Part shown: piece by piece, positions 282 to 13,976 of the stretch | How the letters are laid out: every line of letters starts with the position of its first letter | How positions within the stretch are numbered: position 1 is the first letter of the stretch | NCBI GenBank assembly: GCA_009602725.1 | Contig: WELB01000030.1 | Coordinates: forward strand, 564,447-585,444 | Source of the DNA: Spirogloea muscicola | Taxonomy: Eukaryota; Streptophyta; Zygnematophyceae; Spirogloeales; Spirogloeaceae | Direction of reading: 5' to 3' | DNA length: 20,998 bases | Notes under the pieces: model-generated | What the model saw: only the letters and a program-made list of their open reading frames with translations | What the model was told of the DNA's origin: nothing | Databases searched by the model: none | Position numbers and translations under genes: made by a program

Positions 282-3200
282 ATGGCGGCCATGTCCCTCC
301 GCCAGGCTGCGCCCAGGGGCCTGGGAAAGCACTGCCACTGCTGCCGGCAGAAGCGACCGATCGGCCAGCTTATACCATGCGGCGCGTCCGCCGGCGAGGG
401 CGGGGCCAAGCATGGCCCCTGGTGCCACCGCTGCATCGCCACTCGGCTGCACCAGAGCCCTCACTTCATTGCCGCGGCCAGCGCCGCCGCCCGAGACGGC
501 TCCTGGAAGTGCCCCAGGTGAGCTACAGTCTGCAAGCCTGTGCTTTGGCGACAGGGCATGTTGACATGGCCTAGCGATATGCCTGAGAAGTGAGTCTGGA
601 TGCGGGTAGCATGCATGCCGTTGCCCTTGACATTACACTTCTTGGAGTTCTCATGCTTGACATACTCAGACTTCGATTCACTTGCACAATTACGCCTGTT
701 GTGGCCATCGACGGCGCATCCTGCATGTCAGCTTCAATAGCCTCTTGAAAGGAATGGTGGAACTGCCTCCATGATACTCAAACATTCAGTGCTTGGAATG
801 AAGTGCTTGGCCTCATCATCTGTCATGTGTGAGACTCTGCAGGTGCTATGACGCATGCCCTTGCAACAAGTGCGACCAACGCAGGAGTAAGCTTGGGAAG
901 AGCATGGGGGATGCGATGGAGATGTGGGGCAGGTCTGTGCATTATTATACCTCCCTTTCATGTTGGATGATTGTTCTTCTTACATCATGCTGCTGTATTC
1001 CGCTTGTAATTTGGCTAGCCTACTGGTACTTTGTCATGATTTCCTCTCACCAGCCTGTTCCCGACTGTTTGACCCTGTCATCAGCGAGCGTGACTACGTT
1101 GTGGAAGATGTTGATGTTGGACGGCAATTAGATGAGCTACAAGTAGAGCAGGACGCTGCCAGTGAAGATGATGAAGAGCCACACACAGACGATGAAGAGC
1201 AGAAACCATGTATGACTCTGGATGCTGGGGCTTGTGCGAGCCCGGTCTCTGCTCCAATCACTTTGAGAGGACCTGCTACTCCAGGCACTGGTGTCGGCCG
1301 AGGCCGACCAGCATGTACAAGCGTCCTCACCAGCATTGACAGCCCAGGCGACTCATGTATGTTGGAAACATGCTGCTTCATTGACCCGTGAATTGCATTG
1401 GCTAGTCTTTCTTACTGGTCTGGTTCTAGCATTTCGATACCCTGTCTCATCATCGTAGATAATAGTTGATGTTGTTATGTTGCAGTTCAAGATGATCCAG
1501 AGTTGTACGAAGGAGCCCTTGGACTTTGTAAAATACTCGACGACCTCAGCAGCCCTCACGTACCAAAATTCTCATTGACTCCAAAAAGTCATGTGAGTGG
1601 TTGCCTGGTAGCAGGTGCTGGAGCCTGCAGTTCTGGTTGTTTGTGTCTGTTGAACCTTGACTATGTCCAGCAGAAATGTGCTTGGGTGGGAGTGACAAGC
1701 ATGTTAGAGATGAGTGCCCGCTGGAATAGGAGACCTCCATGATAATGTCACTATCACTATCACTATCACTTGCGTCAAGCAACTAAGAACTATGCTGTAT
1801 GGCGAAGCTCCTACATCGGCCAAGTTGGTTGTAGCACATACCGTTCTCCTGGATATGTCTCTCTACCGCTGATTTGCATCTGCTGTGCTTTGTACTGCAG
1901 GAAGCATGTACAGTCGTGACCCCAGCGTCTGCAATGATCGATTGGGGAGCCCCCTTAAGCCCCCAGAGTCGGAGAAAGCGATCACGAGTAGTCGCAGAGA
2001 GAAGGCAACTACTGCGGGCGGATGAGAGATTAGCCCCTCTTACTGACAGCGCAATCTTGAACAAGAAGCACTTTCATCCCCCAGTACACATACCCACGTA
2101 TTTGCAGCAAGATGGCAGTGTTCATGCCATTGCACACAACAACCGCTTACCATTGCACCCCATTCAGCAGCAGCAGGTGGCAGGGAAAGAGGAGGCCGGA
2201 GCAACGTCACACGAGCAGGCTGACGAGCCATGGGCTGTGACTGAAGTTGATGTTGAGAAGCCCGAAGATGATGGTGGGCACAATGATAGGCAAGGACAAC
2301 CGCAAAGGGAGGTCACGCCTGCCTCGAGGCAGACAGTTGAGGAGTTGACAGGCAGCACAAGCAGCAGGGATGATGCAAGTACAGGTAGCAGCAGGGGTGA
2401 TGCCAGTGCCGGCTTGACTTCCAGCATAGAACTTGGTGGAGAGGCTGGACAAGAAGAGTCCGGCGATTGCTTCAAGGATGGGGGATGTCACAGGACTGAG
2501 GGCAGCGAAGAAGGCAGTGAGAGCTCCCTAGAAGCTTTGCAAGGTACAGTGCCTGGCGATGACTTCACAAAATATGCCTTCCTTCCTGGCAGTGCCGGAA
2601 AGTCCCATCAAGTGAGCTCAGCTTTGAGCATGAAGGCTAAGGCTGAGGCAAGCCTGGCAGCAGCTAAAGCAAGCGCAGAGTCTGGTGGTTGGAGAGCCCT
2701 TGGACATCACCAGGGCCTCAAGGTTGGCCGGCCACGCACCATGCAGAGAGCTGCCAAGGGGGCACCAGGCAAGGTGCAGTTGCAGATCAATGATACTGGC
2801 GATGAGGCCAAACTTGCTGAGAAGAGGAAGAGGAAGGCAAAGGATCTTGGACTGACTCCTGCAGAGGTTGTGAAGAGGAGGAAAAATGTTGTGGATCCTA
2901 CTTGGGTGCCCCCCGTGTCGCCATTTGGCTTGATACAAGAAAAGTTGTACCGTGAGCCGTGGAAGCTCTTGGTGGCATGCATGCTTTTGAACAAGACTGC
3001 GGGTCAACAGGTACTGACAGTAGTGCCAGATTTCTGGAAGGATATGTCTTGCCATGTCTCATAGCTTGTCCTTCAGATCATCTGCCATGGAGGAGATTAA
3101 TAGCTCAGGCTATGCAACATGCTGCTGAATGGAATGCATAGGCTGCTTCTATTCAGTCCGCTGCAAAACTGTCCCACCTACTGTATGCTTCATCATGCTA

Positions 3201-3754
3201 GTTTGATTTTTCTTTGGCTTCAGATGTATCTTGTGATATGGGAGCTTTTTGAGCTCTGCCCGACACCAGAGGCTGCGGTGGCCGCCAGGACCGAAGACAT
3301 TGGAGCTATCATTTACAGGCTTGGTTTGCAAAACAAGCGCGCCCACATGATACAACAATTTTCGGCTGACTACATTCGAGACGATTGGACTGAGATCACA
3401 CAGTTGCATGGAATCGGCAAGTAGGTTTGCAAGCCTGTACTCAAGTGCGTTCAAGTCAGTCCAAGTGTTGTTGTTGTTTACTAACCTTGCAGGCCCATGC
3501 CTTACGTCTACAGTCTGCTTGCGGGCATCAAGCAGCAGAGAATGGCATCGAATTGATCTGTATCAATATCTTGGCACCTTCACTTGATAACAGGGTGCCA
3601 TGCGTTGGTTGACAGGTACGCAGCTGACTCACATGCCATATTCTGTGAGGGGCGCTGGCGGGAAGTGACGCCAGACGATCACATGTTGAACAAGTATTGG
3701 ACCTGGTTGCAGCAGACGCAGGGCCAGGGCTATGGCTTCTCTACGGACATCTGA
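282..3754 (+). CDS. MBD4: CDCA7-type zf-4CXXC_R1 zinc finger fused to MBD4-type DNA glycosylase
   Basis: Seven exons: 282-517, 843-886, 1054-1356, 1486-1592, 1901-3010, 3224-3420, 3616-3754. They encode 711 aa with reading phase kept at every junction. Residues 17-90 form a zf-4CXXC_R1 domain: CHCCRQK, then C33, C48-x2-C51, WKCPRC at 75-80, and C84, C86, C89. The first intron lies inside CPR|C, which ties exons 1 and 2 together. A linker of about 470 aa follows, acidic near residues 140-160 and basic near 530-560. Residues 563-711 match the MBD4 glycosylase: [31 protein letters not shown], the helix-hairpin-helix LHGIGK at 661-666, and [11 protein letters not shown], whose Asp687 corresponds to the catalytic Asp of MBD4. 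MBD4 removes T or U opposite G at CpG sites; CDCA7 fingers bind hemimethylated CpG and help maintain methylation. No MBD domain was seen. The start is the first ATG in the open frame. The least certain point is the exon 4-5 junction, because exon 5 also has an in-frame ATG at 1874. Confidence 0.83.
1746..1771 (+). repeat. Hexanucleotide microsatellite (TATCAC, about 4 copies)
   Basis: A tandem CACTAT/TATCAC array lies in the fourth intron (1593-1900) of the zinc finger-glycosylase gene. It is a short simple repeat with no evident coding role. Confidence 0.8.
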
Positions 3755-4847
3755 GACGAAGCATGACATGGTCAAGTGCCTGCTCAGCGGCGAAATTCGC
3801 TGCACAAGTATGCCCTGAGGCTGGGCAACAGCTCGGTCAGCTGCCCTAAGGAGGCAGACGTCTATACCTTGTGGGCCCATGCGGTTGTGTACAGGAGTTG
3901 GAAGGCTATACGGTGGCAACTGCCCCCTCTGTACGCTCATAGGCAGGACCTCCCCTCCGAGCCCCACCTTCACCCCCTCCCTCCCCCACAACTCTTTGAA
4001 CCTTACTCATACTCCTCAGTGCAGGGACAGTGGCGGGAGTTGGCTCAGCCATACAACATCCACGCCCTTGCCCTAGCGAAGTACATTGTAGCAGAGCACG
4101 TCATGCACCTCACAATGCTCGCCTGTACAGAATACTGGTTTGGTCGTTGGGTGTACAAGTAAGTACCCAGTAGCGAGTACTGCTGTACCGGAGATGAGGG
4201 CGATGGGAGGCCTTGCGGGGTCTCTCCCTCTGGAGCTCGATTTGGCTCACACTCTATGGGCAGTGATACCATGTACATACAAGCCCCTCCTTCCTCTGTC
4301 CCCTGTTGCCTACGTTGTGTAGAGGAGGAGGCCATGCGGCCAGAATGCTTGCCGCCCAGTCAAGGCATACGTCCTTGCCGCCTTGCAGCGGAGGACACAA
4401 CCACTGTGACAAAGCTTTGGCTTGACTTCTTGCTGGCGGCATGCCCCCCCCCCACCCCGGCTCCTTTCAGCCTCCCCCCAAACTATCCCCTTGCTGGACC
4501 TCATATGCGACCTTTTCAGTACTCAGCAACTTACTATGCAACTTTCGGCAACTTGCATGCATGAGGACAATAGCAGCACCAAGTGTGCTGAAGTGCCAGC
4601 GGTGATCTCAGAAGGTATTTTAAGGGGTGAAATATGGTACACATGCACAAGATGTTGGGTGCTCTGTCAGGAAGACACCAATGTTCACGACTTTGGCAGT
4701 CCAAGTTAGCCTCTTGACTAGTTGTGATGATCTCAATCTGCAAATCCTCTTAGTTGTAGCCCAGATGAGAGTAAGGCCACATGACGTGCAGCTTGCCTGT
4801 GACTGAGATCTTTACTTCCTCAGCTGTAGCCCCCTCATCGACAAACA
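3755..4847. other. Intergenic region between two convergent genes
   Basis: About 1.1 kb between the stop of the glycosylase gene (+) and the stop of MED10 (-). It should hold both 3' UTRs. Open frames such as 3776-4162 (+) show no recognisable motif and no splice-linked continuation. A run of ten C lies at 4444-4453. No RNA gene or mobile element was seen. Confidence 0.6.
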
Positions 4848-6298
4848 TCATGGGGGGCCTGCTTCCCGATGGCCAGCAGCGTCTACTCCCTCCATGGGAG
4901 TGGCATCCCCGTGGGATTGGCTGAAAGCCCCCTCGACCACCTCCGCATGTGTAGTTGCCTCGTCCACATCCTTGGGACCGATCGCGCCATTGGACAGACT
5001 AGCGGATGGCTCAACCTTTACCACCTGCATGTTATCAAGGACAAGCAAGGAAGTGGACACATGAGGCTGCTGCAAAATTTGCCAACTATAGAAAGTATGA
5101 TCTCTTGAGTGAGCAGTTCTTTTAGGAGGGCAACAGAGGACAACTTCAGTTTTTTGCTGTGATAGCACTTCTGACGAGCTCGCTGACCCCAATGACAACA
5201 CCGATTTGACAGGCAAGGCCTCACCGAGGAACTCCGCAGGGCACGATATGCCTCGGTCTCTTCGGGAAACGCACCGTCGATGGCAGTGATAAGCTCGCTA
5301 CGCAGAGCCTGCAGCAAGAGCCAGAGCGGAGGCAGTGAGGCTGGCGCACCAAGCAAGGGGCACACGCAGGATGGTGCTGGCGCAGGCGCCGCCAACCTGG
5401 GGCCGCCCAACACAAGCGGCTCGCGGATGGCAATCTTGGCCAGCTCTGCTCCTGCCGTGAGGAGCGAGTGACAGACGCACAAGGCCAAGTGGAGCCGGTA
5501 GCAGGCGCCAACGGTCAGGCCGGAGTGCACCTTGAAGGCGTCCACACGGCCCTTGGTGGCCTGGTTGCGGGCCGCGCACGCCTGCAGGAGGTCACGCGTG
5601 AAGCTGTCGGGGTTGCGCCCCTCGTCGATCAGCCTGCGAGGCAGCAGAGCGCGCCCACAAGCTCGCCGCCTCAGGTTCTCAATCTCATCGGGCTCCATCT
5701 CACGTCGTGTATCACAGAACGGCCGTACATGCTTCATGCAGAAATGCAGTCAAATGAAGTTAAGCATTAAGTATAATGCCACAAGCTGTCAGCATGCAGG
5801 GCTTGAGTGCCCCCAGCGGCGGGCTTCTGTGGGCCAACACCGCACTCCAGCACCTGCGGTTCTGCGCTCCCCTGCTGCCCAGATCCTCGCCCTCACGGTC
5901 TGGCGCTGGAAAGGCTCAGCGCAACGAGGGCCTCTCACGGCAGCGCGTCGTCTGGCCGCTCTCACCTGACGACCTCCAGAGGGACGCGGGCGTCGCCGCA
6001 GCCGTCGGCCGCCTCGGCCACCGCGGCCAGCTCCTTCACCAGGCCATTCCTACAGACCCCCGCCGCCGCCAGGTGCGGGAGCTCAAGCTGGGCGCCAGGT
6101 CCGAGCTCCTGAACCCGTCGCTATGGCCAAGACCAAGGCGGCAGATGGCGGCTCCGGCCTCGGCCAGGAGCAAGGAGGGGGAGCCCACAGGCGCTCGAAG
6201 AGCAGCAGCTGGCTGCTGTCGCGGTACCCCCCCAGCGTCCGCTCCAGCTGGTGGGTCTCGGCCAGCGCCCGCCCCACCGCCGCCCGCAGGCCGTCCAT
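4848..6298 (-). CDS. MED10: Mediator complex subunit 10
   Basis: Five exons on the minus strand: 6298-6189, 6049-5966, 5633-5531, 5308-5225, 5024-4848. They give 185 aa, close to the usual length of plant MED10, and phases match at all four junctions. The protein starts MDGLRAAVGRALAETHQ and continues through an LFERLNGLVKEL helix (the intron splits the Leu codon) and VPLEVVRLIDEGRNPD, the MED10 signature. It then runs through FTRDLLQACAARNQATKGR and a FPEETEAYR segment like the conserved FPED-Y-R of the family. The last 58 residues are acidic and look disordered. MED10 is a middle-module subunit of Mediator, which links DNA-bound activators to RNA polymerase II in the nucleus. The ATG at 6298 is the only one in frame; upstream lie poly-Ala codons from a GCC run, then a stop. 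The gene is convergent with the glycosylase gene. The 3'-most exon is supported by splice phase and an open frame rather than by homology. Confidence 0.87.
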
Positions 6299-6302
6299 GC
6301 CA

Positions 6303-6335
<33 letters not shown>
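6303..6335. repeat. (GCC)11 trinucleotide run 5' of MED10
   Basis: Eleven perfect GCC units sit five bases upstream of the MED10 start codon and about 55 bases left of the orphan THG1 exon. In this position the run is MED10 5' UTR. It is also a likely place for assembly slippage or a false join. Confidence 0.85.
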
Positions 6336-6337
<2 letters not shown>

Positions 6338-6389
6338 TGCCCTCGCTCAGCGCCACTGCGGAGCCGCCGCGGCGGGGGTCGTCCCGCAG

Positions 6390-6521
6390 GTTTTCGCAGG
6401 CGCACGGGTTCGAGAAGCCCAACGACGAGCGCGCGCTGCGCCTCATGAACGCCGCCGCCGCCGCCGTGCTGGACGACCAACCGGACGTCGTCTTCGCCTA
6501 CGGCGTCAGCGACGAGTACAG
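6390..6521 (+). pseudogene. THG1: Orphan internal exon of tRNA-His guanylyltransferase
   Basis: One exon of 43 full codons flanked by a good acceptor (CCCGCAG) and a GT donor (AG|GTGTGC). It encodes FSQAHGFEKPNDERALRL, then PDVVFAYGVSDEY, the conserved Thg1 segment that includes the metal-binding Asp region. Thg1 adds G-1 to the 5' end of tRNA-His. The expected upstream exon carrying the RIDGRGF-type motif is not found to the left, where MED10 lies on the opposite strand only 92 bp away. The expected downstream exon (SFVF-like start) is not found to the right before the F-box gene. An N lies at 6631. The exon itself is intact and under clear coding constraint, so the lack of partners is more likely an assembly break or collapsed repeat than gene decay. 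The type is given as pseudogene only because the gene is incomplete here. Confidence 0.7.
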
Positions 6522-6814
6522 GTGTGCGAGCGCCGCCGCCCTCCGCATTTGGGTGTCACGGCAGCTTCGCCATCTGCTCGGGGCTCCGCCATGACCTGGC
6601 GAATCATTCGTGCCTCTCGCCGGTGCTGTGNGCGCCGCCGCCGGCGCCGCTGCGCAGCCCCGCGGCCCGTAGGACGCCCCCTGGATCCCGCCACGACGCG
6701 CCGGCTGCGGTGCCAGCCGCCGGCGGCTGAGCTCGCTCGTCGGAAGTGGCTCTCGTCTCCGACGGGCGGACGTCGCAGCATGCTCGGCCGCCGGGGGCTT
6801 GCCGCGCAGCCGCC
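6522..6814. other. Region with an ambiguous base (N at 6631), probably an assembly join
   Basis: GC-rich sequence between the orphan THG1 exon and the F-box gene. It contains the single N at 6631 and a GCC/GCN-rich tract. No exon could be supported. The right part is presumably promoter and 5' UTR of the F-box gene. Confidence 0.5.
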
Positions 6815-9800
6815 ATGGACAGCCGGTCCACCAGCAGTTCCGGGAGCGCCGAGGACCTGCAGCAGGCGGCTCTGAGCCTCAGCCGGCCAGCGTCCCCCGC
6901 CGACGTCCCGCACGTCCTCCTCTTCGTCTTCGCGCTGCTGTGCCAGCGGGACCGGTGCAGCGTCGCCCTGGTCTGCCGCGAGTGGCACCGCCTCGCCAGC
7001 CACCCGTCGCTCTGGAAGGTCGCCATTATGCACTCCTGGCCTGCCGAGGATATCAACCATATGGTCATGATTTTTGGCGTGAATGCATGCTAAGTGCTGC
7101 CTGGCACCAAGTGGTTTTCGTGTCGTTGGTGGCGCCCTATTATATAACATATATAGTTCATAGTAACATATAATCAATGGTCTGCTATTTGCGCATGCAT
7201 AAAGCGACAGATGCTCACGCCCTGGTGGTAGTGCCGTGTCCCAGCAGACGCTGAGTCTTCAGGGTGCCAGCAATGCAGGCCAAAGGCTCGCCTCGGCCAT
7301 CATACAGGTCAGTGACACGGAGTGATCAGGATGTGCATATATTTTCTAGCAGACCTCCGTTTGGTCGTAACCCTTGTCTCATCTCGTCTCTGCTGACATC
7401 CCGGGCCACCATGCCTCAATTAGGTTTGCATTGTGACTCCTCCAACAGGCGCGCTTCGTCCTCCTAAGAGAGGTGGACTTCGAGTTCGCACAGGGGCTGG
7501 AGGATCACCATCTTTCCCTTCTAGCCGATAAGGTGACAAGGCCAATATACCTCATCCCCATACTTGTTGGCTGGTCAGCCTCTCATCTGCTCGGTCTCAT
7601 CGATTGCTCGAATCCTGTTGTCAGGTGGTCAAGCTGCTTGCAGACGCAGTCAAAATGCTGCTCACAGAGAATGAGTCTAGCTCATATCAGCGGCAAGCAG
7701 CAAGAGCTCCACATTGTCCTCCTGAGACACAGTGGATGTGACATGCAGCATGTCCTTTACATTCACTTCAGTCTGATTGCCAACGGCGCAATGTGCTCGC
7801 AGGACTTGCGCGTTGTCAATCTCAACGCATGTCAGAAAGTCACTGATGCTGGCGTAGTAAATTTGTGCTCAACTCAGCCTAAGCTGACAAGCCTCTCCAT
7901 CTACTGGAACCTCAAGTAAGTGAGTGCTGCCGCTGGTGGGGTTTGCAGCTTACTTTCTCCATCTGTTGCCTTGGACCTCTTAGATTCATCTTTGTTCTTC
8001 TGACACACAGTGTACTGGCTTGCTTTGGCCTTTTGATTTCCTACGCACAGCGAGCCTTCTCGTATGCAGATCAATTTTGGATTAGCATGCAGACTAGCTG
8101 ATGACCTGGATGATTTTGCTGATGCTGCTAAAGCAGGATAACAGACAGGTCTCTGGAGGCCCTGGCGACTTACTGCCCGCGACTGCAGAAGTTGAACATC
8201 AGTGGCTGCAAGGTAAATGCACACCCCACTTAGACGTGGTCAGTACAGCCGGGTGTTGTTGGCAGGACAATGTTGTGCACGATTAGCCTGATGCCTACAC
8301 GTCAATTTTGCGAATAGTGAGATGTACCACACAGGTCAGACTTAAGATGTCAGCTATATGCAGAGGACATCAAATTGGACTGCCCTGGACTGCAAGTCAG
8401 TCATACGAATTCTGCTGCAGGGACAGTGCATGGCAGGGGCTAGCACACTGTGCCACTATGTCACTGTGTCAGGAATACCATCTCTCATTATTAATTTCTA
8501 TTTTTTGAGCTACTCCTCCACACATCCAGCCTCAATTGTGAGCATAATGGTGACGATGACGGTTGCTAACGATGGATTTTTTATACCGTGGAATCCTGCA
8601 GAACGTCACAAATGTTGGACTTCAAGCTGTTGCCAGAAGTTGTCGTCGATTGACCAGTGTCAACCTCACTCGGTAAGCAACCACTACTCACAGGATGGAT
8701 ATGAAGGCAGCTGATTGCGACCAGACTGATGGACGGCTTCTCCACCATGAGGTAGCCTGAGAATGATCTATGTAACATGTACTCAGGGGTTGTCTTGCAG
8801 GTGCATTCACGTGACAGATGCAGGAGTGACCAACGTCATTAGAAGTTGCACGGGATTGACTGAGTTGTATCTTTATGCTGACTCAAAGTACGTGGATCAA
8901 GCTCTGCTGGACAGTTCATTGTGTTGGTTGTGAACATGTTCGGCTTACTCCTCATTTCACGTCCATGCGATGGATGCATAGCATTTTCACCTGAATGGGA
9001 GTGCTGTCTGGCCTGGCAGCCTCACTGATCTACTTTTCACACGCCTCTCCACTCTCCATAATCTTCACCTTCTCGACCTCTGTGGCATGCAGGTACTTCT
9101 CATAATTAGTAGATTCTCCTCTACTAGCGAAACATGTCTGTTAAGTAGCACCTCATTGACTTGGTACTTCTCTTATACCAAAGAGTAATTATAGTATGTT
9201 GCTAGTTGTGAGAGCATCAGATATTGTTCTTCGCCAACTTACAGTCTTTGCATGCTGTTGAGGCCCTGTTGCAGCATTTGACAGACAAGGGCCTTGAGGC
9301 TATCGGGTGCTGTCCGAGGCTAAGGTCGCTTAATCTGACATGGTGAGATGTGATTAATACATGCTGTGTGCATGATCATGACTTGCTTAAACTATCAATG
9401 ACAACTCAAAGCTAGCCAGAGAATCTCCTGGGAAACATCGGCCACATTCTGAGCAGAATCTGTCTGTCTGAGCTGCTGGCAGGTGTGTCCAGATAACTGA
9501 CGCAGGACTTGCTGCCATTGCGTATGGCTGCCAATATCTGGAGGTTTTGAGGTACTGATGGATGCAGAAGGGTCTACTGCTCAACCATGTACTTTCTGTT
9601 GCAGGTCCCACAATGGAGAGCTTGATGAAAGAGTGACAGTGACTGCAAGGGTGATCAAATGCACCACTTTATGTTTGTGATCTGATTGAAAGTTGTGCCT
9701 GGTGTTAACTTGCAGTCTCTATGGCATCCGGGGAATCACGGACAGCAGCATTGAAGCTCTGGCTCGGGGCTGCAGCACATCGCTCACAACCCTCGATGTC

Positions 9801-10055
9801 AATGGTTGTGTCAACATCACGGTAGCTCCGCCTGCCCTTTTGAGACCACCACAGGCCCTTAGGTGGTATCTTATGCAGTTCCAGCCGCATAATAAGCAAC
9901 ACTCAGAAGCTGGCACGACTTCGCTTCTGGCTTCTCTTTGGATATCTTGGATCTGAGTCTGACTAAATATGTGTTTGCTTATTGTCCAGAGGCGATCCCA
10001 GGCTGAGCTACTGCAGCTCTTTCCCAAGCTGCAGTGCTTCCTTGTTCACAGCTAG
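6815..10055 (+). CDS. F-box/LRR protein of the At3g58530 type (SCF substrate receptor)
   Basis: Twelve exons: 6815-7018, 7248-7307, 7449-7532, 7803-7915, 8137-8212, 8602-8672, 8801-8887, 9020-9092, 9275-9342, 9483-9551, 9716-9821, 9990-10055. They encode 358 aa; the Arabidopsis protein is about 350. Phases agree at all eleven junctions. Residues about 28-68 form a degenerate F-box with CSVALVCREWHRLASHPSLW, which would bind SKP1. The rest is a chain of cysteine-containing leucine-rich repeats with consensus ITDAGL...C..L..LNLT.C, for example VNLNACQKVTDAGV, LNISGCKNVT and LNLTWCVQITDAGL. The C-terminus is near-diagnostic of the family: TTLDVNGCVNIT, then RRSQAELLQLFPKLQCF and LVHS. The role is inferred as substrate selection in an SCF ubiquitin ligase; the target is unknown. 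The start is the first ATG in the frame. Exon 4 may lack a few residues compared with plants between the DHHL and LRVVNLN segments, so a small exon in 7533-7802 could have been missed. Confidence 0.92.
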
Positions 10056-10512
10056 CTAGCGGCAGCATCGTGTGTCCTCGGCTTTGCCTCCACTAAACAA
10101 ATCCACGTCCATGATGACGCTTAAGGGTCATTGCGCTCTGTTAGACGAAGCTCTGCAACACTCTATTCTTGCTTTCAGCTGATGTCTTGGCCTGCTGAGC
10201 CAAGGCATGTCTGCAAATCACAGGACAGGCTCGAGCTGCTAGCTCAGCTGAGTGTCTTGGCCCAATCCTCGCCTCTTCTCAGACACAGACAGGAGTCGCC
10301 AAGCGAACTCTGCTGCTCAATGCTAAGCCATGAGCCCATTGTGCTTCTTGCTAGTGCTTCAAGTAAACCAGTATCTTCATCATGAGCACAGAGTAAAGCC
10401 GCCAATACCCATTGGCCTCTGAGGTCGGCCATGTCTGCCAATATTGAGAACGATGGCCCTCAAACGGACCTATGTCCTCAATTGACTTGGTGCGACGTGC
10501 TTCATGACTATC
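10056..10512. other. Intergenic region between convergent F-box and GARP genes
   Basis: About 450 bp between two stop codons facing each other. It should contain both 3' UTRs. No exon, hairpin or repeat could be supported. Confidence 0.5.
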
Positions 10513-13343
10513 CTAATGATCGTCACGCATTGAGCCTCGAGGCGTGGCTGCGCAGCCTGTTGTGCGGTCATTGCGGCCTCTGCCAGCTCTATTGGCTTCA
10601 CTCCTCGCCTCTCCAAAAGAGGACATGAGATCCCTTGCCTGGTCGCCGCTGGTCCCGCCTAGCACACGCTCTGATCTCCCTCTGGAGGCCCTGAGTGCAG
10701 CCCGGCGGCGGGCGTGGGCCTCCTCATCAGCCTCCATGTCGGGGGCTCCGTCAAACTCGTGCAAGGCTGCCAGGTTGTCCTTGGCGCCATGCAGCTCATA
10801 GCGCCGCCGACTTCGGTGCGGCAGCACGCCCGTCAGGGGCGGGTACTCGCCCACCTCCTGGAAGGCTGCTGACAGTGGCTGCTGCTCCGATGGCCGCTTG
10901 TACGAGGAGGGCTCCTGCCACTGAGGCTGGACACTACCAGGTGCAACTGGAGTGCATCATCAGGCTACAGGATTCCATGCCACCAAGTTACTTACCAAGA
11001 ATGGTGCTCCAGCAGCGAGCTAGTTGTTTGCCAGCAATTATCGAGCAAGGGCCTCTGTGAAGTATTCATCAGCGAGAAGGCCGAGAGGTGACCCTTGATG
11101 TCCTTGTGTGGCCATGTTGTTGCCACAGGTGTTCTCAATAGTGGCGCAGTGAACATGCAGCAGATTGCTGTTTAGTGGCTGGCAGGTGCAGGTACCTGTA
11201 GAGCTCGCGCTCCATCAACACGTGCTGCTGCTGGTGGCCCCCCAAGGATGGCACTGGACCGGAATCCATGTACGGGCCGGATGCTGGTGCACTATATGTG
11301 GCGCCATGCGATGCCGCCACTGTTGCGGCCGGCAGCGCCTGTGTGTAACCTGGGGGCACCCAGATGCTCCCCAGCACCATCAGCTGCTGTGCCGCACCGC
11401 CACTCCCCGCGGTTGCCAGCGTCTGCAGCTGCAGAGACGGGCTCGGCCTCCGCGTATGCAGGCGATACTTCTGCGCCCGCAATGACAGAGGGCAGAATTC
11501 AGAGCTCGGAACTGCACCCAGGAGCAGGCGCATGGTGCCTTGGGCACCCGTGATTTTGCTGCATGTCTGGAAGCTGCCAGGGCACTGTTGAGATCATTGC
11601 GAGACAATGGAAGAGCAGGGCAATGGCTCCGCTTTTACCTGAAGGTGCGACTTGACCTCGTCATTTGTGAGCCCGTCCACCTTCATGAGCTCGCGTATGT
11701 GCTTTGGCGTTGCCACTGCACAGAGCCATTGGCACGCGCTGTGTATCAGTAGAGCACATCATTCTCCTGCATGGGTGAGTGGGGAGAAAGGGGGGGGGGG
11801 TGCAGTTAGGCTGCAACAGCACTGTGGGCCACCGATGCTCATGTTTGACCACGCACTGCGCGCTGATGTGGTGCTGCCTCCTTGGTTGCCTTTCACAGCA
11901 ACCCAGACATGCTCGAGATATTAAAAGATAGGGAAGGGGACATTGGAGGTTTACTGCGGGGCCCGCCAAGCTGCTTGAGCGCCTCCACAAAGCGGCGGTG
12001 CAGCTCCGGAGACCAGCACCGGCGTGCCTTGCGCTCCCGCGGGGACAGGTTCCCGCTGCCGGCACGCTCGAGGCTGTGCGAGCCACCATCGTGTCCCCGC
12101 ATGTCGTCAGAGCTCTCCCCTGAGCTCCTGTCGGGGGGACCCCTGCCGCGCTCGAGGACAACCCTTTCACCAGTATCCAGTGACGCCGACCTCTCCAGCT
12201 TATAACCCGTCGAGGCGCCAAAGCCCACGCCGCCATTGTGGCCGCGGATGCCGAGGGCAAGCTCCGTGGACGTTGGGGAAAAGTGCTGTAGGGAGGAGGG
12301 CCGCCTCGGTGGCTGTGACGGGGGACCATACACCTGCCCTGGGCTTGAGCTGGACCGGCTGAAGGGCGTGAAAGCACCGAGCGGCCGACGCTGAGCAGGG
12401 TGTGAGCCCCCCCCGCCGGTGGCATCACCACCTTCAAGGTGCACTTGAGCGTGTGCACCGTCGTCCGCAAGCTCCTGTGTTGCCTGCTGGCCGTCTGCCT
12501 GCAAGGATACCTGGAGCAGCCGCGTCAGTCTACCAACTGATAGATCTGGCAGGCATGCAGACATGACCGGCAGGAGAGCAAAGCCTTGCAAGGACGTGAT
12601 ACTTAAAGCCCATCAAAGTAGCTGAGCCGGCCCAGCAGGAGCAGGCGCAGCATCTTCTTCTGCAGAAAAAGAAGATGCTACTCCAACTACTGGCCCCTTA
12701 TCGCAATGTCCAAGTCGCGCCACTGCAGACGCGGCAGCCACCCGGCTCGTCCAGCAAGACGTGGACAATAGAAGCAGATTCGTGTTTCCATCTTGGAAGA
12801 TTGCTGCGCCAGGATGCCACGGATGCCTCACCTGCTGGCCTCCTGCCGCCAGCCATTGGTTCCAGAGCTGCGGCCCAACGTGCCACACTGGAGTCGGCGG
12901 CAGCTGCAGGCCCGGGAGATGGCTGCCGTCGCCCTTGGGGGCAGGCGATGCGGCTGCTGCCTGGCTGAACTGCAGCGGCTCTGCCGCGGCGCCACCGTGG
13001 CCGCCGGGCTCCTCCGGCGGGCACCTCGGCTCGGGCGCGGGCGCGGTATCGCCGCCACCGCCGCCGACGAGCGCGCTGCTCCTGCTGAAGACGGTCTGCA
13101 GCCGCCTCTTGGCCACAGCCACCGCTGCGCCAGACCCAATGCATGCCTCCGTGAGCGCGACAAGACCTACATGGCAGTTCTGGTCGTCGAGCACCGCAGA
13201 TGCGTGAGCACAGCGGAGGGGGCCCAACTCATACCTTCGTCGAGGAGGCCCATGCAGAGCGGGAGCTCGCGCTTGAAGGCCTCGATCTTGCGCCGCTCAT
13301 CCTGCAGCGCTCGCAGGTGCTCCTCCAGCTGCGCCGCCAGCAT
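10513..13343 (-). CDS. HHO: NIGT1/HHO-type GARP (G2-like Myb) transcription factor
   Basis: Six exons on the minus strand: 13343-13235, 13166-12832, 12498-11955, 11715-11639, 11470-11196, 10933-10513. They give 586 aa with matching phases. Residues about 8-36 carry the HHO N-terminal motif, [20 protein letters not shown] followed by CMGLLDE. Residues about 303-363 are the GARP DNA-binding domain: [18 protein letters not shown], then [20 protein letters not shown] and [13 protein letters not shown]. Two introns interrupt this domain; the first splits the codon before ATPK, giving Met where plants have Val. In land plants these proteins are nuclear repressors acting in nitrate and phosphate starvation responses; that role here is inference. 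The parts between and after the two domains are Gly/Pro/Ser-rich, and the last 140 residues are not recognised. The start is the first ATG in frame; the GTG upstream at 13379 is not a credible eukaryotic start. The last exon rests on phase and an open frame only. Confidence 0.88.
11790..11800 (+). repeat. G homopolymer (11 bases)
   Basis: A run of eleven G lies in the GARP gene intron 11716-11954. It has no coding effect and its length may be a sequencing artefact. Confidence 0.7.
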
Positions 13344-13562
13344 GCGCCCCCCGGCCGCCCCGGGCGCGTCACGGGGCACCGCCGCCGCCGCCGAATGCCC
13401 GCACGGCCGCCGCGGCGCGCATCCGGCCGCGGCGCAGCAGTCGAGGCTGCCTCGAGCAGCTAGCCGCCATGCTGCATTGGCGCGCCTCAGCCCAGCGCGC
13501 CGCGCAGATGCCAGCGATGGACCATGCGCCGCGGCGCCAGCAACCGGCTTTCAGGCGGCCGC

Positions 13563-13586: not shown

Positions 13587-13889
13587 GCGCCCAAGTGGTG
13601 AGAGCCGCCGCTGCCGGCGCTCCCTGAGACGGCTCCTCATGACCGTGTCAACGGCTTGCCTCCGCCAGGCTGCGGCAGCGACGGCAGCAACCCCTCTAAA
13701 ACCCTTAGCTCCAAAAACTCACAGAGTCTGCACCTCGACTTGTACCCTAGCCCTCAGCTTGGCGCACCCGACCAGCAACTGAGGCCCTCGTTGGTGCGCT
13801 ACTCGATCCCCATGATAAATGGCGTAAGAGCAGATGAATGCCGCTAATGATGTCAAACCAGCGGCTGACAAAGCCAGCCAGGTGCATAC

Positions 13890-13976
13890 AGAGGGTGTTA
13901 GTGAATCTGTTAGCGGAGCCACAGGCTACGCAGGTGTAGCTCAGGGTCTGTCGTTTCGGTGGCGACCAAGATGAGT
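13890..13976 (-). CDS. Possible first half of RNA polymerase subunit RPB12 (RPABC4)
   Basis: A minus-strand frame reads PPKRQTLSYTCVACGSANRF and resembles the N-terminal half of RPB12, which has PPK, then Y-x-C-x2-C and an Asn a few residues later. A possible acceptor (GGTGCAG) and a possible donor (GTATGC) flank it. The second half of the ribbon (CRECGYR-like, with a KKRT tail) was not found between here and the GARP gene, and no start codon could be linked. It may be a partial gene, a relic or chance; confidence is low. Confidence 0.22.

Follow-up and report, generated by a model that had tools for sequence, protein, structure and literature searches.

A putative fusion of a CDCA7-type zinc finger to an MBD4-type DNA glycosylase in the alga Spirogloea muscicola

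A stretch of 20,998 nucleotides from a Spirogloea muscicola contig (C30:564447-585444, hereafter the window, in an assembly of 153 Mb and 471 contigs) contains a gene whose predicted protein carries a zf-4CXXC_R1 zinc finger of the CDCA7 type at its N-terminus and an MBD4-type glycosylase domain at its C-terminus. Both domains are known, and we did not find a description of their pairing or of the targeting that it implies. That the two domains form a genuine single-gene fusion is very probable, judging from homology and from the divergence of two genomic copies. For its function we favor, with a probability of roughly 0.4, a reading in which an MBD4-like thymine/uracil glycosylase would be brought by the finger to CpG sites that carry 5-methylcytosine (5mC) on one strand.

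The two halves of the predicted protein

Comparison of the protein with PDB sequences by phmmer gave 15 distinct MBD4 sequences as the top matches of the C-terminus, with E values from 3.1e-39 (1ngn, over residues 568-705) to 2.4e-37. The corresponding Pfam family, HhH-GPD (PF00730), was found at residues 593-701 with a score of 23.0 bits, under its cut-off of 26.2 (E 1e-4). A preliminary description of this DNA had placed the glycosylase domain at residues 563-711; an MBD4 domain is indeed present, with the narrower limits of the PDB match. The helix-hairpin-helix that it reported is likewise kept, as LHGIGKY in the alignment to MBD4 of the PDB, but the catalytic aspartate, given there as Asp687, is residue 675 in our gene model. 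Asp675, in the motif GIGKYAAD, aligns with the aspartate of GIGKYGND in MBD4, which we take to be the catalytic residue. In the same alignment human Tyr540 corresponds to Tyr655 (human numbering and role as we assume them), and Tyr672 occupies what is presumably the position of the lyase lysine of endonuclease III, consistent with a monofunctional enzyme such as MBD4.

The finger was recognized at residues 15-95 (PF10497, 33.9 bits against a cut-off of 22.7, E 3.6e-8). Here too the family named in the preliminary description, which gave residues 17-90, stood. By phmmer the match to CDCA7 (8yv8) was weak, with an E of 0.11 for the whole protein and of 0.0085 for the first 113 residues, where it was the top match for the finger alone. 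Nevertheless, the sequence CHCCRQK of the fusion aligns with CHQCRQK of human CDCA7, placing Arg22 at R274 and Gln23 at Q275, and the equivalents of G294 (the glycine ahead of an aromatic residue and cysteine) and R304 (the arginine past the sixth cysteine) are both kept, so that the three ICF residues, R274, G294 and R304, are identical in the two proteins. As described for CDCA7 (PMC11343034), R274 contacts the methyl group of 5mC and the next G, Q275 lies beside the unmethylated C where a second methyl group would clash, R304 and S330 touch the DNA backbone, and G294 is near a zinc site. Hemimethylated CpG binding by the fusion finger is thus plausible.

PF10497 and PF00730 were the sole families matching the 716-residue protein in Pfam at E values up to 1. 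At this threshold there was no match to MBD (PF01429), to JmjC, or to the permuted CXXC, RNA recognition motif and FeS cluster of the DME/ROS1 enzymes. No PIP-box pattern was found in the protein, and exons 1 and 5 had no match in NCBIfam, a prokaryote library.

One gene or two

The principal evidence that the two halves belong to one gene is a second copy on contig C376 (locus L011), which aligns with the window over 3-744 and 831-6036. Since window positions 4200-6333 and 6633-13362 also match C376 (87% and 86%), we consider the copy to be part of a duplicated segment, either a homeolog or an allele that has diverged strongly. All seven exons recur there in the same order, with the same phases and splice dinucleotides and with 93% identity over exon 5, and within exons the copies differ by just two indels, of 3 and 12 bases, both of which fall in exon 5; in intron 1, 78 bases are missing from C376. 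Identity between the copies is 94.6-100% in exons, 81.6-91.2% in introns, 92.5% in the 5' flank and 90.6% in the 3' flank, a contrast that is clear but modest. An assembly artefact was ruled out, because the order of finger and glycosylase recurs on both contigs with introns that have diverged to this extent. As had been proposed from the compatible exon phases, the exons link finger and glycosylase in one frame, and the phases are unchanged in the second copy.

Nonsynonymous (dN) and synonymous (dS) divergence between the two copies was calculated by the Nei-Gojobori method, and each region was compared with 5000 draws in which the same changes were placed at random. The finger had the lowest ratio of the regions measured (dS 0.089, dN 0.004, dN/dS 0.04, P 0.0012), and residues 5 to 112 are unchanged at the protein level. 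Constraint extends across the linker: exons 3 and 4 together gave dS 0.098 and dN 0.021 (P 0.0096), exon 3 alone dN/dS 0.13 (P 0.0094), and the exon 5 linker dS 0.155, dN 0.032 and dN/dS 0.21. For the exon 5 linker, for its part ahead of Met479 (residues 236-478) and for the glycosylase (dS 0.159, dN 0.011, dN/dS 0.07), none of the 5000 draws had as few nonsynonymous changes as observed. In addition, over the linker as a whole the excess of changes at third positions was significant (39 of 69, P 6e-5), and exon 4 is better conserved than the introns on either side of it, with 4 of 107 sites changed against 61 of 437 (Fisher p 0.0024).

Several results weaken this case. The selection tests rest on two copies from one genome; in exon 4 alone, where three of the four changes are nonsynonymous, selection at the protein level was undetectable (dN/dS 0.77, P 0.56); and the third-position excess in exons 3 and 4 was not significant (7 of 14, P 0.15). 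Moreover, the part of intron 4 that continues the exon 4 frame itself gives a dN/dS of 0.42, so that a value below 1 does not by itself prove a short stretch to be coding.

These results bear on whether the model wrongly joins two neighboring genes, with exons 1-4 encoding a small finger protein like CDCA7 and exons 5-7 a glycosylase like MBD4. Descriptions of the known relatives treat the two as separate proteins, in both copies a transcript that retained intron 4 would end 49 codons later, and the frame continuation into intron 4 is, as noted, not clearly neutral. Against this, the gap between exons 4 and 5 (308 bases) is within the 129-325 bases spanned by the six introns, its splice dinucleotides and phases are equal in both copies, and at both of the sites found the finger and glycosylase parts lie side by side. 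The preliminary description had named an ATG at 1874 as an alternative start, but there is no ATG at that position, and neither copy has an in-frame methionine between the upstream stop (1832) and exon 5. The first methionine of exon 5, Met247, is threonine in the C376 copy, and the next one common to both is Met479. A translation start inside exon 5 is therefore poorly supported, because Met247 is not conserved, no methionine lies upstream, and a start at Met479 would leave 243 constrained residues, 236-478, unexplained. Two separate genes are unlikely because no in-frame ATG near the start of exon 5 is common to both copies, and with the remaining evidence we would give a wrongly joined pair very little weight. 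The single gene originally proposed thus agrees with both homology and selection across the two copies.

The features of the gene are listed in the table. For exon 3, an acceptor at 1052 was discarded by eye because splicing it to the donor at 932 leads to a stop after six codons; the acceptor at 1084 was used instead. The open-frame lengths of 639 and 874 amino acids listed for C30:567328-568182 and C376:21902-22144 exceed the open frames visible in the window.

Table. Features of the predicted fusion gene, in window coordinates.
Feature	Position	Strand	Content
Gene	282-3754	+	7 exons, 6 GT-AG introns; 2151 bases, 716 amino acids and stop
Exon 1	282..517	+	Residues 1-78; start codon and 6 of 10 signature cysteines of the zf-4CXXC_R1 finger; Met1 kept in C376 copy
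Exon 2	843..932	+	Remaining 4 signature cysteines; 100% identity to C376 copy
Exon 3	1085..1356	+	Acidic linker; AT-hook-like RGRP at residue 181 (regular expression)
Exon 4	1486..1592	+	Linker; 96.3% identity to C376 copy, flanking introns 88.4% and 85.1%
Intron 4	1593..1900	+	Disputed junction 1592/1901; GT-AG, 308 bases, 2 stops in exon 4 frame
Exon 5	1901..3010	+	Residues 236-605; long linker with basic clusters, then start of MBD4 glycosylase domain
Exon 6	3224..3420	+	Glycosylase domain as far as the helix-hairpin-helix (LHGIGK)
Exon 7	3616..3754	+	Presumed catalytic Asp675 (GIGKYAAD), end of glycosylase domain, stop codon

Possible roles of the finger

Because the residues that read hemimethylated CpG are kept and no MBD was matched, it is reasonable to regard the finger as the targeting module of the protein. 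In newly replicated chromatin, the finger would dock on hemimethylated CpG, delivering the enzyme just behind the replication fork, and the tethered glycosylase would inspect nearby CpGs and excise T or U opposite G. The favored substrate would be U:G opposite 5mC over T:G opposite 5mC; the latter is unlikely to be a direct target because T carries a 5-methyl group, so that the site looks fully methylated in the major groove, an argument that extrapolates from the published CDCA7 contacts (PMC11343034). Alternatively, the enzyme would remain where repair has left an as yet unmethylated C opposite 5mC, tying repair to re-methylation. The proposal that mismatch repair is placed at hemimethylated CpG or coupled to methylation maintenance therefore needs narrowing: newly replicated or just-repaired CpG and U:G opposite 5mC fit, and T:G opposite 5mC is not expected. 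The plant MBD4-like enzyme is described as preferring CpG, as removing U better than T, and as having no MBD (PMC6728418, PMC10573277). Mammalian MBD4 is reported to recruit UHRF1 and USP7, regulators of DNMT1 (PMC9266487), which makes a link between repair and maintenance less far-fetched. Somewhat more speculative than targeting itself is a built-in hemimethylation sensor, through which repair of CpG deamination would be confined, or handed over, to the period of maintenance methylation after replication, so that U:G would be removed before DNMT1/MET1 acts or the C restored opposite 5mC would be kept for re-methylation.

A number of features weigh against targeting to hemimethylated CpG by this protein. 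The finger has 10 of the 11 signature cysteines, the fourth being without a counterpart, and an extra cysteine (Cys20) lies inside the first CXXC; the nearby His44 might stand in for the missing one. Ser330 of CDCA7 (in CSFC) is asparagine, and the Pfam match stops at model position 77 of 99, the C-terminal helices not being recognizable. In addition, because human Arg468 is replaced by Lys600 in the PDB alignment (human numbering and role as we assume them), the thymine activity of the fusion glycosylase may be weak. With human CDCA7, residues 341-371 were required for hemimethyl-dependent binding, and DNA was not bound by the Cys-rich part without them (PMC11343034). Thus, the suggestion that the finger replaces the MBD holds for the key residues that read hemimethylated DNA and for the missing MBD, but not for the fourth cysteine, Ser330 or the C-terminal helices, and plant MBD4-like proteins are described as having no MBD in any case (PMC6728418, PMC10573277).

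These departures, together with a loop between cysteines 6 and 7 (C51 to C77) that exceeds that of human CDCA7 by six residues, could instead mean that the fusion is real and its finger no longer reads hemimethylated DNA, serving rather as a docking module for protein or chromatin, much as diverged zf-4CXXC_R1 fingers such as that of IBM1 may have become adapted to other targets, with the glycosylase finding mismatches by itself. MBD4 activity is reported to be unaffected by removal of the MBD (PMC9266487), although the same source describes an MBD-less splice form of MBD4 that lost thymine activity. However, the base-reading CRQK pair and the G294 and R304 equivalents are kept, and the finger has the strongest constraint measured, whereas class III fingers are described as keeping no ICF residues and as having deletions between cysteines 6 and 7 (PMC10538959). 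We consider a docking role possible, if somewhat less likely than targeting to hemimethylated CpG. It is less likely still, in our judgment improbable, that the finger reads methylated CpG generally, full or hemimethylated, and that the protein is a functional analogue of animal MBD4 with another methyl reader. Arabidopsis CDCA7 weakly prefers fully methylated over unmethylated DNA (PMC11343034), and the order of N-terminal reader, long linker and C-terminal glycosylase is that of animal MBD4, but the glutamine expected to clash with a second methyl group (PMC11343034) is retained.

Class I zf-4CXXC_R1 proteins, which include CDCA7 (HMZF), are delimited by the ICF residues together with all 11 signature cysteines (PMC10538959); because the fusion finger has the former and lacks one of the latter, it is not filed as class I. 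It shares with CDCA7 the finger family, the CRQK base-reading pair and the three ICF residues, and differs in the cysteine count, the asparagine at Ser330, the longer loop and the unrecognizable C-terminal helices. Furthermore, the HELLS-binding helix of CDCA7 lies N-terminal of its finger, whereas just 17 residues precede the first finger cysteine of the fusion, and CDCA7 orthologs have no other detectable domain, whereas the fusion carries the glycosylase at 568-705. Class II (DDR) and class III (IBM1/JMJ24) proteins do join a zf-4CXXC_R1 finger to another functional domain, but their partners are DDT/WHIM1 or JmjC instead of a glycosylase, and their fingers are described as departing from the ICF residues (PMC10538959). 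The class II finger has the ICF glycine (G294) substituted, which is unsubstituted here, and class III has JmjC and a deletion between cysteines 6 and 7, where the fusion has no JmjC match and a longer spacing.

Among glycosylases, animal MBD4 likewise has an N-terminal reader, a long linker and a C-terminal glycosylase (E 3.1e-39), but its reader is an MBD in place of zf-4CXXC_R1, and the residue at the presumed Arg468 site is lysine in the fusion. The Arabidopsis MBD4-like protein (AtMBD4L, AT3G07930) also combines a C-terminal MBD4 HhH-GPD domain with a long N-terminal extension and no MBD (PMC6728418, PMC10573277, PMC9266487), but, compared by description only, it is presented in those excerpts without a recognized N-terminal DNA-reading domain. 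The DME/ROS1 5mC glycosylases couple an HhH-GPD glycosylase to a zinc-binding module, but by way of a permuted CXXC, with an RNA recognition motif and FeS cluster (PMC9266487), of which the fusion has no Pfam match.

No description of a zf-4CXXC_R1 and MBD4 pairing was found in the literature searched, among the matches listed (supplementary domain lists and subscription papers being outside its scope), in agreement with the earlier remark that no such protein was known. The words 'glycosylase' and 'MBD4' are absent from the text of PMC10538959, and 'glycosylase' from that of PMC11343034. No methyl-CpG reader is part of the plant MBD4-like enzymes as described, and a natural fusion to a CDCA7-type finger would name one way in which deaminated 5mC could be found. 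If the favored reading is correct, a hemimethyl reader would steer a glycosylase, the mutation rate of 5mC would be tied to methylation maintenance, and the CDCA7 finger would be linked to base excision repair, a link that we did not find in the same literature. The T-versus-U argument provides a sharp prediction that would set the fusion apart from animal MBD4.

Genome context

Both the glycosylase domain and exons 1-4 were detected twice in the assembly, on C30 and on C376. The fusion is the only MBD4-type enzyme seen, a claim of absence that is limited by assembly gaps. Searches of the glycosylase part against a viral contig collection (no match) and a genome contig collection (8 pattern matches, none confirmed) are no evidence of absence, as neither collection is meant for eukaryotes.

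A search of the assembly for PF10497 returned 11 exon matches, of which one is the C376 copy and ten are on C127, C89 and C43; this search overlooks fingers split by introns and misses copies accordingly, the window's own finger not being listed. Eight of the ten matches outside the fusion were read, and these are pieces of CDCA7 type (CHQCR or CHQCK, HRQKT, DWVCPVCRDICNCSFC), with L005 more diverged. By eye, the finger of these genes seems to be split at positions unlike those in the fusion, and this difference makes it improbable that the fusion finger was recently copied from the genome's CDCA7-type genes. Six of the finger exon matches fall at four places within about 32 kb (C127:282094-314553) and form a local cluster of genes or pseudogenes resembling CDCA7.

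MBD exons gave 4 matches in the assembly, none on C30 or C376, and DNA_methylase (PF00145) gave 71, of which four were read and some apparently lie inside retrotransposons. Because the genome has CDCA7-type finger exons as well as DNA_methylase matches, the 5mC mark that a methyl reader requires is plausible here. Methyltransferase-bearing retrotransposons have precedent in other algae. By eye, locus L022 (C134:126691-130026) contains a retropepsin-like DTGAQP motif, a cytosine-methyltransferase-like stretch, a stop and a reverse-transcriptase-like YIDDVLVFS; L020 (C351:11047-14388) has a DTGAQP-type motif, a methyltransferase-like stretch and the beginning of a reverse-transcriptase-like region. 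Loci of this type look like a Ty3-type retrotransposon carrying a methyltransferase. In L021 a DSGAQP motif and the methylase are in separate frames, and L023 has the methylase alone.

Downstream of the gene, at window 6298-6631, the 333 bases before a single N (position 6631) match C256:71367-71699 at 100%, C168 at 87% and C234 at 86%; this part of the window may have been misjoined or filled in at a gap during assembly. Contigs C168, C234 and C256 all have a version of the 6298-6630 segment as well as DNA methylase exons that match two shared stretches of the profile (about 89-140 and 285-323), which suggests three homeologous segments. Rubisco small subunit exons were seen on four contigs, and several copies would suit the triplicated genome that we take Spirogloea muscicola to have. 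A small subunit query assembled by eye from such exons, with residues absent at the junction and hence from the loop of interest, scored highest against 9pvb (E 1.3e-54) and against small subunit 1A, 9n37, of Arabidopsis (E 4.1e-53), and lower against 1gk8 of Chlamydomonas (E 1.5e-42), which supports, with moderate confidence, a streptophyte genome. Finally, a dispersed short repeat of about 100 bases at window positions 13831-13933 (approximate limits) recurs on at least 34 contigs with 72-95% identity.

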